From positions 1 through 64,000 of the forward strand of contig SCQT01000235.1 of NCBI GenBank assembly GCA_004322015.1: a DNA stretch of 64,000 nucleotides. The letters run 5' to 3'. Shown here in pieces: positions 3,280 through 28,034 of the stretch. The position numbers and the translations under genes are program-made. The notes beneath the pieces are model-generated. The model was not told where the DNA came from. It saw only the letters and a program-made list of their open reading frames with translations, and made no database searches. Each line of letters opens with the position of its first letter. Position 1 is the first letter of the stretch. This stretch comes from Chitinophagaceae bacterium (GTDB lineage Bacteria; Bacteroidota; Bacteroidia; Chitinophagales; Chitinophagaceae).

Positions 3280-3296
3280 GCGGAGAGGGCGGGATT
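3280..3296. other. attL, left attachment site
   Basis: The sequence GCGGAGAGGGCGGGATT is repeated exactly at 27947-27963, where it forms the last 16 nucleotides of tRNA-Ser plus one flanking base. Here it is not followed by the rest of a tRNA, as expected for the far end of an element integrated at a tRNA 3' end. Confidence 0.85.
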
Positions 3297-9394: not shown

Positions 9395-9931
9395 ATGAAA
9401 AAGTCAATCGCAGAATTCCTGCAGTTCAATGGAAGAAACATTTACTTCCAATCTGAGAAGGGTATCACGTATGTTGCCATTAAGCCTATTTGTGAGGCAT
9501 TGGGTATTAATTATAATAGACAATTTCAGAATCTTAAGAATCATGTTATTCTTTCTCAACTGTTTGCTAAGCAGCAAATGGTTGCTGCTGATGGTAGAAT
9601 GAGAGAAATGATTTGCCTATCCGAATTTTATGTTTATGGATGGATCTTTTCAATTCAATCAGATAATCCGGAATTGGTTAAATATCAATGGGAATGCTAT
9701 AAAATTCTTTATAATCATTTCCATGGATCTATTACCGGCCGCGCATCCATCTTACAATCTAAGACAAAGAATGAATTGGAAATTGAACGTCTGGAAGCTA
9801 TTCTGAAGGAAACTGAAGAAGCTAAAAAGATTGATGAATTAAAGCAATCCGTGAAAGCAGCAAACAAATCCCTGGCAGTGATGGATAAGGAATTGGCTAC
9901 CGGACAGCTTTCTTTATTTCCGAACTTATAA
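9395..9931 (+). CDS. Phage antirepressor-like protein (P22_AR_N type)
   Basis: This 178-residue protein carries the N-terminal antirepressor domain: IYFQSEKGITYVAIKPICEALGI, YNRQFQNLKNH, then MICLSEFYVYGWIFSI. These match the P22 Ant/BRO-N-like fold. The C-terminal 60 residues are a coiled coil (LEIERLEAILKETEEAKKIDELKQ). Proteins of this type bind DNA or inactivate repressors and can trigger the lytic switch. Here it may oppose the repressor at 3379-3726. A 19-bp gap precedes it and a 13-bp gap separates it from the next gene. Confidence 0.7.
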   Translation: MKKSIAEFLQFNGRNIYFQSEKGITYVAIKPICEALGINYNRQFQNLKNHVILSQLFAKQQMVAADGRMREMICLSEFYVYGWIFSIQSDNPELVKYQWECYKILYNHFHGSITGRASILQSKTKNELEIERLEAILKETEEAKKIDELKQSVKAANKSLAVMDKELATGQLSLFPNL

Positions 9932-10753: not shown

Positions 10754-10996
10754 ATGGATGCGATAACAATTTTTCCCGAAAACCAGGAACAGGAAAAAAC
10801 CCTGGAAGCAGTCTTTCAAATGATGCAATTGCGGTTTGAAAAAAATATAACAATGGCTGATGCTAAAAAACGAATTGAAGAATTAACACAAATGCTTCAA
10901 GATGTTTCTGATTGTGCGGAAATCGAACGCAGGATGAATGAACCGGACATTCCTGCCGAGCAAGTATATGCTGAAATTGAAAAGAAGTGGAAATGA
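10754..10996 (+). CDS. Antitoxin partner of RelE-like toxin
   Basis: This 80-residue acidic helical protein precedes and overlaps the RelE-like toxin gene. I start it at MDAITIFPEN (10754) rather than further upstream, where the frame runs out of phase through the previous gene. The sequence (EQEKTLEAVFQMMQLRFEK and later EQVYAEIEKKWK) fits small Bacteroidota antitoxins paired with RelE/ParE toxins. It has no obvious DNA-binding motif. Function is inferred from the neighbour. Confidence 0.65.
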   Translation: MDAITIFPENQEQEKTLEAVFQMMQLRFEKNITMADAKKRIEELTQMLQDVSDCAEIERRMNEPDIPAEQVYAEIEKKWK

Positions 10997-11256
10997 TGGA
11001 ATATAAAATAACTTATAAACCATCGGCCCAGAAAGAATTATCTCTTTTACCTAAACATGAATATTTCGCTATAAAATCGGCTATAGAAGCGCTTAAAGAT
11101 AATCCCTATCCTTCCGGCTGTAAAAAAACACATGGAAAATTTGAGAGCTGTTATCGTATAAGGCAAGGCGATTATCGTGTTATCTATTTTGTTATTAAGA
11201 ACGAAATTTCCATACGTATTATCAAAATTGGCCATCGCAGAGATATCTACCGCTAA
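10993..11256 (+). CDS. RelE/ParE-family toxin
   Basis: The 87-residue protein has the RelE fold pattern: ITYKPSAQKELSLLPKHEY, a helical hairpin, GKFESCYRIRQGDYRVIYFV and a final IIKIGHRRDIYR, including the basic residues of the active face. The start at 10993 gives an ATGA overlap with the antitoxin stop; ATG 10996 and GTG 10987 are alternatives. RelE-type toxins cleave ribosome-bound mRNA. In this element it may stabilise the provirus or act against superinfection. It is the last gene before the first leader-RNA cassette. Confidence 0.8.
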   Translation: MMEYKITYKPSAQKELSLLPKHEYFAIKSAIEALKDNPYPSGCKKTHGKFESCYRIRQGDYRVIYFVIKNEISIRIIKIGHRRDIYR

Positions 11257-11282: not shown

Positions 11283-11315
11283 TTTGTTTTTCTGATTTTT
11301 TTATCCTTATCTTTG
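11283..11315 (+). promoter_or_regulatory. Promoter of leader-RNA cassette 1
   Basis: TTTG at 11283-11286 and TATCTTTG at 11308-11315, 21 bp apart, match the Bacteroidota sigma-ABfr consensus. Transcription should start near 11319-11320, exactly at the first nucleotide of segment a of the leader RNA. The same box, at the same 3-nt distance from segment a, or 4 nt in the second cassette, occurs at 26037-26044. Confidence 0.7.
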
Positions 11316-11318
11316 TCT

Positions 11319-11447
11319 TGTCAAAGTTCGAAATTAAAGATGCAAATGAGAATCACAAATCAGAATTGTAACAAAACTACCGGGTGGGCCTGTAAGACAG
11401 GCAATCTCTTCGATGCGTTTGCATTGACGGACTTTGACAGCGCCCGG
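11319..11447 (+). ncRNA. Three-way-junction leader RNA, copy 1
   Basis: The core is a three-way junction. P1 pairs 11380-11386 (CCGGGTG) with 11441-11447 (CGCCCGG). P2 is GCCTG-TAAGA-CAGGC at 11388-11402. P3 is TCGATGC-GTTT-GCATTGA at 11410-11427. The strand between P3 and P1, CGGACTTTGACA (11428-11439, segment b), is exactly complementary over 12 bp to TGTCAAAGTCCG (11480-11491), which covers the start codon of the next gene. It can also pair, with one G-U, to TGTCAAAGTTCG at the transcript 5' end (11319-11330, segment a). Either pairing would be a pseudoknot with P1. A second copy with compensatory changes lies at 26049-26176. I know no described RNA family that matches. Confidence 0.75.
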
Positions 11448-11478
11448 TATATTTTTTCACTTCTTAATTTTATTCAAA

Positions 11479-11742
11479 ATGTCAAAGTCCGAAACACAGG
11501 GATTGAATTCCCACCTAAAAGTACCTTCCGGCGCGGCCGGAATTTTCGCCACGGCCAAGCATCTACATGCGCTTAACTTCTCAATTGCCCAGTTGGTTTT
11601 ATTTTATCACAAAGATGATGTAGTATTCTGCCAAACATTCCGGGAACTGATAACAGGATCCGATTACCTGGCCGCAGAGCTGGAATACCGTATCAATCCC
11701 CAAATGGCTGTACAAGAGCTGGAAAAGGAGGTATTATCATGA
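11479..11742 (+). CDS. Cassette gene A, copy 1, unknown function
   Basis: This 87-residue protein starts at ATG 11479, just inside the segment complementary to the leader RNA. The upstream TTG at 11434 lies within the RNA structure and is unlikely. The sequence has a helical core LNFSIAQLVLFYHKDDVVFCQTFREL that aligns with LSVLYQNVIDWILEYHHENDSFCETLEKL of the gene at 26204-26503, with the same YH..D..FC.T spacing. It overlaps gene B by ATGA. No known family is recognised. The paired organisation with its own switch-like leader suggests a regulator or a small effector. Confidence 0.65.
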   Translation: MSKSETQGLNSHLKVPSGAAGIFATAKHLHALNFSIAQLVLFYHKDDVVFCQTFRELITGSDYLAAELEYRINPQMAVQELEKEVLS

Positions 11743-12002
11743 CACAATTCACCGCCCAAGATGCCTATAAACTGGCATTTAAGCAGCAAGCGGATCAGAT
11801 GAATTATGTATATGACATCATTCATGAAGCCGCCGAAAACAAGAAATTTGAAGTAGTTCTGCCCTATGTGCTTATAAAACATCTCCGCGACCGGTTAACA
11901 AATGAAGGCTACCAGGTCCAAATTAATGACCATTATGATGGTCAAACGGTTATAAGCTGGTGGTTGGGGGATATCAAGGATCAGGGCAAAGATTTAGAAT
12001 AA
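11739..12002 (+). CDS. Cassette gene B, copy 1, unknown function
   Basis: The 87-residue product is homologous to the gene at 26503-26721. Both have a helical N-terminus around an A-K-Q-MN.VY-like stretch, then a beta-hairpin end: NEGYQVQINDHYDGQTVISW here against AIGYIVQVSERYGGSTQITW there. A strong Shine-Dalgarno AAGGAGG (11725-11731) lies 7 bp before the ATG, which is unusual in this phylum. The start overlaps the stop of gene A. Function is unknown; the fold looks like a small alpha-beta protein. Confidence 0.7.
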   Translation: MTQFTAQDAYKLAFKQQADQMNYVYDIIHEAAENKKFEVVLPYVLIKHLRDRLTNEGYQVQINDHYDGQTVISWWLGDIKDQGKDLE

Positions 12003-12031: not shown

Positions 12032-12060
12032 TCCCTGGTTTCTACCCGGGATTTTTATTT
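12032..12060. terminator. Terminator after cassette 1, probably bidirectional
   Basis: The hairpin TCCC-TGG...CC-GGGA (12032-12051) is followed by TTTTTATTT. It lies between the convergent ends of gene B (12002) and the leftward gene ending at 12060, and A-rich sequence on the other side lets it act on both strands. Confidence 0.55.
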
Positions 12061-12347
12061 TACAGTCCATGGTATTTTTTGATTCGTTCCAGGAAGGCTT
12101 CACGCCTCTTATTCCATTCACAGATCTTATTAGCTATCCTGGCATCCGCCTTATTTAGCTCCGCTATAGGATCTTTCAGCTTTATTTCCTCTGGTTCCGA
12201 ATACCTGAGCTTATTAAACAATTCAGTTTCTTCCACTTCCTGGTAGGCGTAAAGCTTTCCCTTTACCTCAATCCACTGATGTTCCAGGCGCGCTTCCTGG
12301 ATCATCTTTAGCAGATAGCCGCTGTTATCTTTGTCTGTACCCCACAT
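12060..12347 (-). CDS. Hypothetical protein, leftward
   Basis: This 95-residue charged helical protein (KLKDPIAELNKADARIANKI, then CEWNKRREAFLERIKKY) is encoded against the direction of the element's other genes. Composition and codon pattern look like a real gene, but I recognise no family. It is convergent with cassette 1. Upstream on its own strand there is a perfect hairpin (12367-12390) that would lie in its 5' leader. Confidence 0.5.
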   Translation of the reverse strand: MWGTDKDNSGYLLKMIQEARLEHQWIEVKGKLYAYQEVEETELFNKLRYSEPEEIKLKDPIAELNKADARIANKICEWNKRREAFLERIKKYHGL

Positions 12348-14351: not shown

Positions 14352-14472
14352 AAAAAAGAAAAAGTTTAATGCGACAGAGTTTTTGGGTTTTGCCGCGATC
14401 GCAGCGGGTATTTATTATTTAACGAAAAAAACAAAGCAGGCTGGTACTGTAACTCAAACAACGAAAGCATGA
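14338..14472 (+). CDS. 44-residue basic single-pass membrane peptide
   Basis: The frame begins MRKGKKKKKFNATE, followed by a membrane helix FLGFAAIAAGIYYL and then a basic tail TKKTKQ. It overlaps the preceding gene by 14 bp and the following gene by ATGA (14469-14472). The strong positive charge before the helix predicts the N-terminus on the inner or DNA side. It is one of several such peptides in the module. Confidence 0.6.
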   Translation: MRKGKKKKKFNATEFLGFAAIAAGIYYLTKKTKQAGTVTQTTKA

Positions 14473-16160
14473 ATCTGAAAGCAATTGCTGATGAAACAAT
14501 ACCTGCAGCTCATAATAAGTTCATTCAAATAAAGAAACGATACAGCACGGGAGATATTGTGGATGAAGTGCTTCAATGTTTTCGGGAAAGTTCCTGGCAA
14601 TTGAAAGAATTCGCCCCCTATCTGAGAGGAGAGAATGTAAAAGAGACTTGCGGGAATGTTTGGAATTTCCTGAAAAAAAACGTGAAGTATAAAGTGGATC
14701 CAGAGGAAGTGCAATGGGTAAAAGAACCAGCTAAGACCTGGGAAGATAAACAGTGCGATTGTAAAAGCTATAGCATATTCATTGCTTCCTGTCTTAAAAA
14801 TTTAGGTATAAAAGGATGTTTTCGTTTCGTGAGTTTTAATGATGAACCTGAACCTACACACGTATATATTATTGTGCGTAACCAGGGACAGGATATTATA
14901 ATAGATGACGTAATGCCTCAGTTCAATAAAGAGGCTCAATATATAAGTAAAAAAGATTATCCCATGCAAGGATTATACAGAGTTAGTGGCTTGCCTTCCA
15001 ATGCTTCCATAAAGGGAGCATTACCCGTTGTATCCGGTATGGGAAAGATTTCAATTAATCCCGCACATAAGGGATTATTTACGCGTAAGGCTGAACGTGA
15101 GGGCATGACTGTAAAACAGTTTGGAAGGCATGTATTGGCCCATAAGAATGATTATCCATTGCAAACGATACGTGAAGCGGTATTTTATGAGAATGAGAGA
15201 AATTGGCATAATCATCATAGAATAGGTTCCCTTCCGGTAATAGGGTGTATGGAAGATGATCCCCACGTGGGAAGCATCTTTGATAATATTTTCCGTGGTA
15301 TTAAAAAAACTCTCAGCCAATCCCAGGCCGATCAGTATGTTATTCAATTAGCGCCTGCTTTGTTATACAGGTATATACCGGCTCCATTCCTAAAATTTAC
15401 GGGCAATGGTGTAGATTCTTTCTTTTCTTCCCTGCCTTCTATCGTACAGCAAAAAGTACATGCATGTGATAATCTGCTGAATTATATGCATGATAATTGG
15501 GCACAAGACTATTACCACACTGATCATCTTTTGCATCATACATTAACGGGATTGTTGGGGATGGAACCTCAGCATTATTTAGCTACGGTTATTAATTCCG
15601 TCATTGATTCTTTTCAGAATACCACTGCAACAGCAATAGGCTCATTGGATGTAAGCAATTTCTTACAACAATATGGAGGATCAGGATCAATGCCTTCCGG
15701 ATCTGGTAATATGAATTGGGGTGGGATATTATCTAATACCGGGGAAAGCGCTGCCAGTGGAACAGCAGCTGGAGGTCCGGCGGCAGGTGCAGCTACCGGG
15801 GCATTAACTTTCATAACCAGCCTGCTTTCCGGTTTATCCAGGGTGAATTTGCCGGATAGCTTCAATATTCAAAGCATTGCGCCCCAGCCTGGGGATTGGT
15901 CAGGTTATCAGACTAAGATGCAAACATTCGTTGTTACACCTACACATTCAGATCCATTAGGGTCAGGGTTAAATAATGGATTATATGATGCGAACGGCAA
16001 TGCTATACCGGGCGTTAACAGAAGTTTATTACCAGGTTCCACGCAGTTTTACGGCACACCTGCAATAAGATCTGGTATGTCTCCTTTAATAATGATTGGA
16101 CTTGCCGGCGCTGCCGCAATGATGTTTTTCGGACATAAAAAGAAAGGAGCCAGAAAATGA
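14469..16160 (+). CDS. Transglutaminase-like virion protein with C-terminal anchor
   Basis: This 563-residue protein is the second largest of the late module. Residues 60-150 resemble a transglutaminase/NlpC-like core with Cys98 in QCDCKSYS, His131 in THVYIIV and Asp146 or Asp147 in IIIDDVM, in the right order and spacing for a Cys-His-Asp triad. The middle is rich in His and aromatic residues (HNHHRIGSLPV; DYYHTDHLLHHTLTG). A Gly/Ser/Ala-rich linker follows at about 405-450. The C-terminus is a membrane segment (IMIGLAGAAAMMFFG) with the basic tail HKKKGARK. It may crosslink or cleave capsid or cell-wall components. Function is inferred from the triad. Confidence 0.6.
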   Translation: MNLKAIADETIPAAHNKFIQIKKRYSTGDIVDEVLQCFRESSWQLKEFAPYLRGENVKETCGNVWNFLKKNVKYKVDPEEVQWVKEPAKTWEDKQCDCKSYSIFIASCLKNLGIKGCFRFVSFNDEPEPTHVYIIVRNQGQDIIIDDVMPQFNKEAQYISKKDYPMQGLYRVSGLPSNASIKGALPVVSGMGKISINPAHKGLFTRKAEREGMTVKQFGRHVLAHKNDYPLQTIREAVFYENERNWHNHHRIGSLPVIGCMEDDPHVGSIFDNIFRGIKKTLSQSQADQYVIQLAPALLYRYIPAPFLKFTGNGVDSFFSSLPSIVQQKVHACDNLLNYMHDNWAQDYYHTDHLLHHTLTGLLGMEPQHYLATVINSVIDSFQNTTATAIGSLDVSNFLQQYGGSGSMPSGSGNMNWGGILSNTGESAASGTAAGGPAAGAATGALTFITSLLSGLSRVNLPDSFNIQSIAPQPGDWSGYQTKMQTFVVTPTHSDPLGSGLNNGLYDANGNAIPGVNRSLLPGSTQFYGTPAIRSGMSPLIMIGLAGAAAMMFFGHKKKGARK

Positions 16161-25977: not shown

Positions 25978-26005
25978 AGCCCCAGTATTCCTACCGGGGC
26001 TTTTT
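25978..26005 (+). terminator. Intrinsic terminator at end of late operon
   Basis: AGCCCC (25978-25983) pairs with GGGGCT (25996-26001), extended by TTTT. It lies 22 bp after the spanin-like gene and 9 bp before the promoter of cassette 2. Confidence 0.8.
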
Positions 26006-26013
26006 AATTAAAT

Positions 26014-26044
26014 TTTGATATCTCATTTCAAGTACCTATCTTTG
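26014..26044 (+). promoter_or_regulatory. Promoter of leader-RNA cassette 2
   Basis: TTTG (26014-26017) and TATCTTTG (26037-26044) are separated by 19 bp. The -7 box is identical to that of cassette 1 (11308-11315). Transcription should begin near 26048-26049, at segment a of the leader RNA. Confidence 0.7.
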
Positions 26045-26048
26045 TTTC

Positions 26049-26183
26049 CGACAAAACGCGTTATATGTATCCGAGGACAATCCAAAAAACAGAGTTTAAA
26101 CTAACACCCGGACGTGCCGGTAAGACCGGTAATCTATTCTATGCCTCGGCATGGACGTGTTTTGTCAGCGTCCGGGTTTTTTT
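26049..26183 (+). ncRNA. Three-way-junction leader RNA, copy 2
   Basis: P1 pairs CCCGGACG (26107-26114) with CGTCCGGG (26169-26176). P2 is GCCGG-TAAGA-CCGGT (26116-26130). P3 is TCTATGC-CTCG-GCATGGA (26138-26144 with 26149-26155). Loop UAAGA and the following AAUCU are the same as in copy 1, and P2 and P3 keep pairing through base changes. Segment b, CGTGTTTTGTCA (26156-26167), pairs over 12 bp (one G-U) with TGACAAAGCACG at the start codon of the next gene (26205-26216), and with CGACAAAACGCG at the transcript 5' end (26049-26060). P1 is followed by seven T, so it may also act as a transcription attenuator. Confidence 0.75.
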
Positions 26184-26203
26184 CATTTCAAAAATTTTTA
26201 AAA

Positions 26204-26503
26204 ATGACAAAGCACGAATCAAAACGGAAACAGGTTGTTCCGCCCCCAGATGCAATCCGCGCATTGAAAGCGCTGGAAAGTCTTAGTGTCCTCTATCAAA
26301 ATGTGATAGACTGGATATTAGAATATCATCATGAAAATGACTCTTTTTGCGAAACGCTGGAAAAACTATATGAGGTATGCCAGTTGGAAAGAGAGCATGT
26401 ATCTGACACCATATTGCCTTATTCTCAAAAAGAGTGGGATAAATGGGATCCCGAAAGTAAAAATCCCCGTTCCGATTTCTTCACCTCCCAAACCAATTTA
26501 TAA
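26204..26503 (+). CDS. Cassette gene A, copy 2, unknown function
   Basis: This 99-residue protein starts MTKHESKRK at 26204, inside the region complementary to its leader RNA. It shares with the gene at 11479 the helical block ending EYHHENDSFCETLEKL (FYHKDDVVFCQTFREL there). The C-terminus (EWDKWDPESKNPRSDFF) is longer and different. Its stop overlaps the start of gene B (TAATG). No known family is recognised. Confidence 0.65.
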   Translation: MTKHESKRKQVVPPPDAIRALKALESLSVLYQNVIDWILEYHHENDSFCETLEKLYEVCQLEREHVSDTILPYSQKEWDKWDPESKNPRSDFFTSQTNL

Positions 26504-26721
26504 TGATAACGTCTAAAGATGCAATCAAGATAACGATGGAAGCACAGAAGCAAAGTATGAAAGTACTTTATAAATCTGTTTTATCAGCAGCAAAACAAGG
26601 GCAAAGAGAAGTACGTTTAAATACCATTCTTATGCCGGATTTCGTGAATGAATTGAAAGCTATAGGATATATCGTTCAGGTGAGTGAACGATATGGAGGC
26701 TCCACGCAAATAACCTGGTAG
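26503..26721 (+). CDS. Cassette gene B, copy 2, unknown function
   Basis: The 72-residue protein is homologous to the gene at 11739-12002. It has a shared start (TSKDAIKITMEAQKQSM against TAQDAYKLAFKQQADQM) and a shared end (GYIVQVSERYGGSTQITW against GYQVQINDHYDGQTVISW). It is shorter at the C-terminus and has no strong Shine-Dalgarno site. A terminator follows. Function is unknown. Confidence 0.7.
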   Translation: MITSKDAIKITMEAQKQSMKVLYKSVLSAAKQGQREVRLNTILMPDFVNELKAIGYIVQVSERYGGSTQITW

Positions 26722-26746
26722 GGATATTTTACGTTTCATTGACATG

Positions 26747-26775
26747 GCCCTGACATTCTTGTCGGGGCTTTTTTT
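26747..26775 (+). terminator. Terminator after cassette 2
   Basis: GCCCTGACA (26747-26755) pairs with TGTCGGGGC (26760-26768), with one G-U pair, followed by seven T. It separates cassette 2 from the convergent integrase gene. Confidence 0.8.
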
Positions 26776-27850
26776 ATAAAGTGGGAAATTTAATCTTCAG
26801 ATCATCATTATCCATTATACCAAGGTCCTTTAAATATTCATTTACCTGGTCTAAAGAATGATGTCTCAATTGCAATTGTAGGTCTTTTATATTTATCCCT
26901 CCTTTAATGGCGGCTACAGCTCCCGTATGCTTCCAGGAATAAAAAGAATAACGGCCGAAAATTTTGCAGGCTAATAATCCATTTTTATGAGCATCATTAA
27001 AATGTTTATCTGATACTGCAATCCTACCGTCTGGATCCTTTGAAAAAAGTAAACCAAAAGGATTGGATCTGGATTGTACATAAGGTTTTAATAGATTCAT
27101 ACACGAATTAGGGATCCTTACCTTTTGTGTTTTCTTATTCTTACTGATTTCAGCTCTCAGCTCTATCCATTGTTCCTCCAGGTTAATATCTGAAATTCTT
27201 AAAAGTCTCATTTCTCCGGGCCGGATAAAGCAATAATACAATAGTTGAATAGCCATCCACATTTCCACGTCATTGAAAAGAAAATATTTCTTCAAAATGT
27301 TTATCTGGCTTTTATTAAAGAACATTTTACTTGTATATCTCTTTCTTAAAGGAATAGTCCCGTCAAAAGGGTTTATACCCGTATTGGTGCGCTTGTAAAT
27401 AGTGAATAATGTTCGCTTATATGCTAATACAGTAGATTCATGCTTTTTCAAGCGAAGTAAAGTCCGAAGGAATTCATTCGCATCAGAAGTATTTATTTTC
27501 AATGGATCCCGTCCGGCAAGCCAATTAATGAAATGGGTAACCTTTGTCTTGTAAGTTGAAAATGATTTTTTTCGTAAAAGAGGCTTTAAGTCGAAAAGTG
27601 TAGTTAACAGTATATTCTTTTGTTTCTGATCTTTATACCAAGCACCGGCCGCAATAAGTTTTATGATTTCAATGGCTTTTTCTTCCCGTTTATCGAAATC
27701 TTTAATCCTATTCATCCATCCATAAACCCGTATTCGTTCGTGGACATCCATTGGATGAGGTTCATAATATTCAATATACCATCGCGGCTTACTCTTTACT
27801 ATTATATATTGCTGGTCATTTTGACAAATAATTTTTTTTTCCGTTTTCAT
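26774..27850 (-). CDS. Tyrosine recombinase (integrase)
   Basis: This 358-residue protein has an N-terminal SAM-like core-binding domain and a catalytic domain with the first arginine in YCFIRPGEMRLL, a lysine-rich beta hairpin (SKNKKTQKVRIP), SWKHTGAVAA, the LRHHSLDQ block and the nucleophile tyrosine in VNEYLKDLGI. In the usual H-x-x-R box the second arginine is replaced (KHTGA), a variant I associate with a Bacteroidota integrase group. It lies beside attR, reading inward, and should carry out integration into and excision from tRNA-Ser. Its start at 27850 lies 17 bp from an inverted GCGCCAAAAAA arm-type site. Confidence 0.9.
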   Translation of the reverse strand: MKTEKKIICQNDQQYIIVKSKPRWYIEYYEPHPMDVHERIRVYGWMNRIKDFDKREEKAIEIIKLIAAGAWYKDQKQKNILLTTLFDLKPLLRKKSFSTYKTKVTHFINWLAGRDPLKINTSDANEFLRTLLRLKKHESTVLAYKRTLFTIYKRTNTGINPFDGTIPLRKRYTSKMFFNKSQINILKKYFLFNDVEMWMAIQLLYYCFIRPGEMRLLRISDINLEEQWIELRAEISKNKKTQKVRIPNSCMNLLKPYVQSRSNPFGLLFSKDPDGRIAVSDKHFNDAHKNGLLACKIFGRYSFYSWKHTGAVAAIKGGINIKDLQLQLRHHSLDQVNEYLKDLGIMDNDDLKIKFPTL

Positions 27851-27946: not shown

Positions 27947-27963
27947 GCGGAGAGGGCGGGATT
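27947..27963. other. attR, right attachment site within tRNA-Ser
   Basis: This 17-bp sequence equals attL at 3280-3296. It covers the acceptor stem and part of the T arm of tRNA-Ser, so the intact tRNA is kept on this side of the element. Confidence 0.85.
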
Positions 27964-28034
27964 CGAACCCGCGATACAGTTTCCCATATACACACTTTCC
28001 AGGCGTGCTCCTTCGACCGCTCGGACACCTCTCC
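27948..28034 (-). tRNA. tRNA-Ser (anticodon GGA)
   Basis: The minus strand gives an 87-nt type II tRNA: acceptor GGAGAGG paired with CCTCTCC, a D arm with GAGCGGTCGAAGG, anticodon loop CTGGAAA with anticodon GGA, a long variable arm and T loop TTCGAAT. CCA is not encoded. Its 3' end is the integration site of the element. Confidence 0.95.

Follow-up and report, generated by a model that had tools for sequence, protein, structure and literature searches.

Two short operons of a Bacteroidota prophage open with copies of one folded RNA leader. Both leaders are real, paired copies of the same structure, and in each a 12-nt strand (b) is complementary to the start-codon region of the gene directly downstream (c) and to the predicted 5′ end of its own transcript (a). 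The b strands differ between the copies and their partners differ with them, so that each b matches its own operon. Their layout closely resembles that of c4, the textbook antisense RNA of phages, which keeps phage P1 quiescent, and we consider it fairly probable that both leaders serve the prophage as antisense RNA modules of a c4-like kind.

The window analyzed here is a stretch of 64,000 nt from a 4.5-Mb genome assembled in 300 contigs. It contains a prophage of about 24.7 kb (positions 3280-27963) integrated in a tRNA-Ser gene (27947-28034) and bounded by a 17-bp repeat at 3280 and 27947, the second of which lies inside the tRNA gene. The integrase (26774-27850) adjoins this tRNA-Ser end. 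The leader operons occupy 11.3-12.05 kb and 26.0-26.77 kb of the window, and their features are collected in Table 1.

Table 1. Features of the two leader operons, in window positions
Feature	Position	Strand	Remarks
Copy 1 -7 box	11308..11315	+	TATCTTTG; TTG at 11284-11286, spacer 21
a1	11319..11330	+	Predicted transcript 5′ end; pairs with b1 12/12
Copy 1 core	11378..11449	+	Fold z -4.3
Copy 1 stem P1	11378-11386/11441-11449	+	
Copy 1 stem P2	11388-11392/11398-11402	+	UAAGA loop
Copy 1 stem P3	11412-11416/11421-11425	+	
b1	11428..11439	+	CGGACTTTGACA; 12-nt antisense strand
Copy 1 gene 1	11479..11742	+	87 aa, P0001
c1	11480..11491	+	Start-codon region; 12 Watson-Crick pairs with b1
Copy 1 gene 2	11739..12002	+	87 aa, P0003; start overlaps gene 1 stop
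Copy 1 terminator-like site	12034..12050	+	3′ of gene 2; from scan
Terminator-like hairpin	25978..26005	+	AGCCCC/GGGGCT and T run, closing the operon upstream of copy 2; read directly, loop too long for scan
Copy 2 putative promoter	26015..26044	+	TTG-N19-TATCTTTG; Bacteroidota sigma-A type, assigned by place
a2	26049..26060	+	Predicted transcript 5′ end; pairs with b2 11/12
Copy 2 core	26106..26177	+	Fold z -3.8
Copy 2 stem P1	26106-26114/26169-26177	+	
Copy 2 stem P2	26116-26120/26126-26130	+	
UAAGA loop of copy 2 P2	26121-26125	+	
Copy 2 junction strand	26131..26139	+	AAUCU-A-UUC; conserved P2-P3 linker
Copy 2 stem P3	26140-26144/26149-26153	+	
b2	26156..26167	+	CGTGTTTTGTCA; 12-nt antisense strand between P3 and closing stem
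Copy 2 T run	26177..26183	+	Directly 3′ of stem P1; possible RNA 3′ end
Copy 2 gene 1	26204..26503	+	99 aa, P0002; no family
c2	26205..26216	+	Start-codon region; pairs with b2 12/12 (11 Watson-Crick, one G-U)
Copy 2 gene 2	26503..26721	+	72 aa, P0004; weak phrog_5321 match
Copy 2 terminator-like site	26746..26769	+	3′ of gene 2; from scan

A Three-Way Junction in Two Copies

The core of each leader is a three-way junction of 72 nt, and the two cores align without gaps with 51 of 72 letters identical. A closing stem of nine pairs (P1) encloses two hairpins of five pairs each (P2 and P3, giving 19 pairs in total), the P3 loop being only 4 nt long. For both copies, none of 300 shuffles was as stable as the core fold. 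The original prediction had placed in the second leader the same junction, with the same UAAGA loop and AAUCU strand, and this is borne out both in position and in detail, as the two elements are identical in both copies. When the leaders are aligned by structure, five of the 19 pairs have changed on both sides, two on one side and 12 not at all, and none is broken. All 19 pairs survive in about 1 of 100,000 trials in which the 12 changes are placed at random on the 38 paired sites, and a control in which the partners were slid along the sequence yielded 0 or 1 two-sided changes. A control that shuffles the columns as pairs was reached by 17 of 500 trials, near the limit of what two rows allow.

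The genes that follow have diverged much further. They are near saturation, with codon-aligned identity at 41% for gene 1 and 48% for gene 2 and third positions at 30% and 36%, which implies either an old duplication or separate arrival of the operons. That the RNA core was kept meanwhile, with 16 of 18 of its unpaired letters outside b and the P3 loop unchanged, points to selection on the RNA. The compensatory changes suggest that this selection has acted since the copies parted, though the leader alone may have spread later.

One Antisense Strand With Two Partners

Between the copies, the b:c helix has undergone three two-sided changes. The original prediction held that c2 had changed to match all four altered letters of b; it has done so at three, and at the fourth it has kept its G, which leaves a G-U pair. 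The predicted 5′ end of the transcript follows b over 11 of 12 positions, as had been proposed. It had also been foreseen that pairing across the copies would be interrupted, and the calculated energies agree with this: the cognate duplexes reach -15.5 (a1:b1), -18.4 (b1:c1), -15.3 (a2:b2) and -15.8 kcal/mol (b2:c2), against -1.6, -6.2, -3.6 and -3.2 kcal/mol for the crossed ones.

Such complementarity is rare by chance. Among 5000 dinucleotide shuffles of each leader, full 12/12 pairing of b with c arose 9 times for copy 1 and 2 times for copy 2, and pairing of b over at least 11 positions within the first 40 nt arose 17 and 77 times, respectively. With four changes placed at random in b and three in c, 12/12 pairing was kept in 495 of 1,000,000 trials. 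The double pairing was also ranked over 40,193 ATGs drawn from the window and 135 partly overlapping loci (loci L001-L120 and loci of the same genome being excluded), and the two copies took ranks 1 and 2 when the weaker helix was scored and ranks 2 and 3 when both helices were summed. The covariation had been read as strong evidence that pairing matters. The unbroken junction, the three two-sided b:c changes and the orthogonal energies uphold that reading, with the qualification that two known copies amount to one comparison; on these grounds the importance of b pairing with a and c is well supported.

Predicted Promoters and Transcript Ends

The -7 box of sigma-A promoters is placed at -12 to -5 from the transcription start in the account of PMC9723704. 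From the position of the box, transcripts are predicted to start at 11320 and 26049, which would make a the very 5′ end of each. One site of the copy 2 promoter type is expected by chance per window. In both operons (11308-11325 and 26037-26055), TTTG in the -7 box is mirrored by CAAA in a, giving an inverted repeat that spans the predicted start.

The seven T reported after stem P1 of copy 2 are present, but the first of them is itself part of the last P1 pair. Copy 1 has no clean U run after P1 and carries UAUUUUUU instead, so the second, transcriptional outcome that the run had been taken to indicate stays at the level of a hint. Stem P1 went unscored as a terminator because the scan takes loops of 3-8 only.

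Products of the Downstream Genes

The two gene 1 products are distant relatives (26% identity over 42 residues), and those of gene 2 are more clearly related (32% over 71, E 1e-13 as a single comparison). None of the four proteins matched an antirepressor or Icd-like family in Pfam or NCBIfam, and neither did the three scanned against PHROGs (P0001 lay outside that scan); PADLOC gave no match to any of the four. The family weakly matched by P0004, phrog_5321, matches one of 295 genomes of the class. No convincing relatives of the downstream proteins were found; one candidate, L136, falls within a long glutamine-rich gene and was rejected.

A model of the gene 1 product consists of helices only. 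The gene 2 product was modeled by AlphaFold from two sequences (pLDDT 70.7) as helix-strand-helix-strand-strand, and among PDB structures the model most often resembles the N-terminal domain of ribosomal protein uS8, with a Z of about 6 across 60-68 residues. The uS8-type likenesses include the S8/spc mRNA complex 1s03, and R3H domains also resemble the model; Foldseek found no PDB match below E 0.1. With Z below 8, the uS8 likeness may reflect only a common arrangement, and feedback by the gene 2 product is a lead only. Both gene 2 products (11739-12002 and 26503-26721) are also similar in fold to a broad class of small, unnamed proteins of phages in BFVD.

Comparison With c4

In phage P1 (NC_005856) the order of elements is promoter, a first target copy (a1/b1), the 77-nt c4 three-way junction, a second target (a2/b2) just 5′ of icd, then ant1. 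In the Rfam C4 alignment the phage P1 sequence has two hairpins within a long closing stem, and a strand left free before that stem closes. Within c4, the segment CTGTCAA (positions 51-57) pairs 7/7 with phage a1 and a2, and the loop of the second hairpin, which contains TCACTAAC, pairs 7/8 with phage b1 and 8/8 with phage b2.

The leaders share this order with c4 (RF01695) and c4-a1b1 (RF03163): a promoter, a copy of the target, a junction of 72-77 nt, the target itself, a small gene and a second gene. They share the three-way junction, with its closing stem and two hairpins, and the siting of the antisense strand, which comes after the second hairpin and ahead of the closing stem, with b at core positions 51-62. 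In both systems one target copy lies upstream (a in the leaders) and one at the downstream translation start (c). Phages P1 and P7 are described as differing in immunity through c4 (PMC12197685), and the two leaders likewise differ in b. Several features set them apart. The leaders have a shorter closing stem and no second antisense loop, and rely on one continuous 12-nt antisense strand where c4 has segments of 7 and 8 nt; their target spans the AUG, whereas the c4 target sites lie upstream of it. Their downstream genes differ, matching no Icd-like or antirepressor family; the antirepressor of this prophage (9395-9931) lies away from both leader operons. Finally, c4 is recorded from Proteobacteria and phages in Table 1 of PMC2864571, and the leaders stand in Bacteroidota.

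The phage P1 c4 scores 68.8 bits against the Rfam C4 model. Neither C4 nor c4-a1b1 matched the leaders with their flanks at E up to 10, nor did C4 match anywhere in the genome; at gathering score, Rfam 15 recognized three tRNAs only in the window, and at relaxed thresholds nothing credible. Judged by likeness of layout, the leader probably works like c4, though it falls outside the Rfam C4 models, and the relation may be one of distant kinship or of convergence.

Alternative Explanations

In the hok mRNA of plasmid R1 the 5′ end helps to switch translation of the same message, as is proposed for the leaders, but there with processing and a separate antisense RNA. The leaders might be purely cis-acting switches, riboswitch-like or protein-sensing, in which a ligand or phage protein recognizes the junction and so determines whether b pairs with a (open) or with c (closed), and nothing acts in trans. 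The unpaired letters of the core outside b and the P3 loop are its best-kept part (16 of 18 kept between copies), as a binding site of this kind would have it. The a:b and b:c energies given above are near equal, and nested folding alone favors b:c in copy 1 and a:b in copy 2, which indicates a close balance. Mutually exclusive leader folds, with upstream elements deciding whether translation can start, are described for the timP mRNA of enterobacteria (PMC11228461), and such folds are predicted here too. The same account has timP pairing two stem-loops, held by an antitoxin RNA, with a sequestered Shine-Dalgarno sequence, and its description includes no target copy at the 5′ end (PMC11228461). 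A gene 2 product resembling uS8, an RNA binder, would suit a protein-sensing switch, although that likeness is weak for the reasons of model confidence and score noted above. No ligand has emerged, and no known aptamer in Rfam matched. A c4-like module is a better fit than a timP-like switch, since it accounts for three features: the presence of a, the siting of b and the T run of copy 2. We regard the purely cis-acting switch as unlikely.

The strands a, b and c could instead be three operator sites of a DNA-binding repressor, differing from copy to copy, with any RNA pairing incidental. Each operon does hold the same 12-letter word three times, with a at the promoter. Yet the junction covaries as RNA and the word is non-palindromic, and at the four places where a or c deviates from the exact complement of b, three of the mismatches are G-U in the transcribed sense (about 0.025 by chance), as expected for RNA, which makes operator sites quite improbable. 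Even less credit is due to the idea that the leader encodes a short peptide. A frame is open across the core in both copies, with KTGNLF common to them, but the differences are spread over codon positions as 6, 6 and 9, which is no coding signal. The peptide has no Pfam or NCBIfam match and its best PHROG match is weak (E 0.0094), while the tblastn matches in phages are at chance level (best E 0.8, in a Pseudomonas jumbo phage).

Proposed Mechanism and Implications

From the fold, complementarity, compensatory changes, orthogonality and layout observed in the two leaders, we infer how a c4-like module could operate. Transcription would begin at a, and the junction would then display b between its second hairpin and the closing stem. 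By pairing with c, b would cover the start codon and first codons of gene 1 and block the ribosome start; gene 2 would be silenced together with gene 1, as its start overlaps the end of gene 1. With stem P1 formed, the b:c helix would complete an H-type pseudoknot. Its stems would be one nt apart and the AUG would follow the end of P1 by 27-30 nt, a geometry that is sterically plausible. In the Flavobacterium data of PMC6847099, lower translation accompanies structure close to the start codon, and this trend makes the masking step reasonable. The second target copy, a, in the place of the a1/b1 site of phage P1, would compete for b within the same transcript. Were the RNA to end or be cut just past stem P1, the shortened RNA could also act in trans and silence the same gene elsewhere, as on an incoming phage. 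Since the b strands differ, each module would silence its own operon only.

Messages of Bacteroidota lack Shine-Dalgarno sequences, according to PMC6847099, and masking of the start codon by an antisense strand would be an obvious route of control in such hosts. Tentatively, and with slightly less than balanced confidence, we propose that the leaders represent a c4-type antisense immunity module outside the phages of Proteobacteria, rebuilt to cover the AUG in a host without Shine-Dalgarno sequences. The two privately addressed copies on one junction would then form an orthogonal pair of start-codon switches, with the transcript 5′ end serving as a start-codon decoy. If true, c4-like anatomy in a Bacteroidota prophage without a C4 sequence match would mean that this mode of prophage silencing had two origins or is much older than has been supposed. 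As a ready-made test, the two copies allow matched b/c pairs to be set against crossed ones within a single reporter.

Search for Further Copies and Surrounding Genes

Searches of Rfam, of viral and genome contigs, of phages and plasmids, and of the genomes of the family (394), order (238) and phylum (188) gave no third leader copy; the genome sets overlap, and stricter filters applied above 40 genomes. The R1 model recovered no copy beyond the two known ones. It matched one genome in the family set, one in the phylum set and, at E up to 0.1, two in the order set. The latter were the genome studied here and L268 (E 0.01), which was rejected because it lies between two convergent genes and most of P2 is missing. 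In the genome itself a third match appears only at E 1.08. On fetched loci the model had no match in two sets of 12 and 3 sources (E up to 10) or in 129 other loci (E up to 1); in 40 stretches of related prophages its one match was at chance level (E 5.4). Among the listed viral-contig matches of the pattern GTAAGACNGGNAATCT, no further copy emerged. The TAAGA...CAGC pattern with five N occurs in at least 3 viral and in 33 genome stretches, none of them with stem P1 and b:c pairing, and R1 matched one of these 36 loci (L262, E 0.17, judged on its printed stretch). With the leader DNA, blastn returned short chance matches in phages and none in plasmids; DUF2693 RNA and phrog_32318 were likewise dismissed as weak chance matches. 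Related prophages have a few genes in common with this one but no leader of the a-b-c logic.

The prophage also encodes a primase-like protein, a methyltransferase, an antirepressor, a RelE-like toxin and an endolysin. Relatives of a 563-aa prophage protein (14469-16160) occur in 20 of 294 family genomes, the present one counted, three of which share further phage genes. A 95-aa frame on the minus strand (12060-12347), facing the end of the copy 1 operon, has no clear family match. Immediately upstream of copy 1 lies the RelE/ParE-like toxin (10987-11256; phrog_1213, E 2e-20), and the preceding frame, 10755-10996, may be its antitoxin partner.
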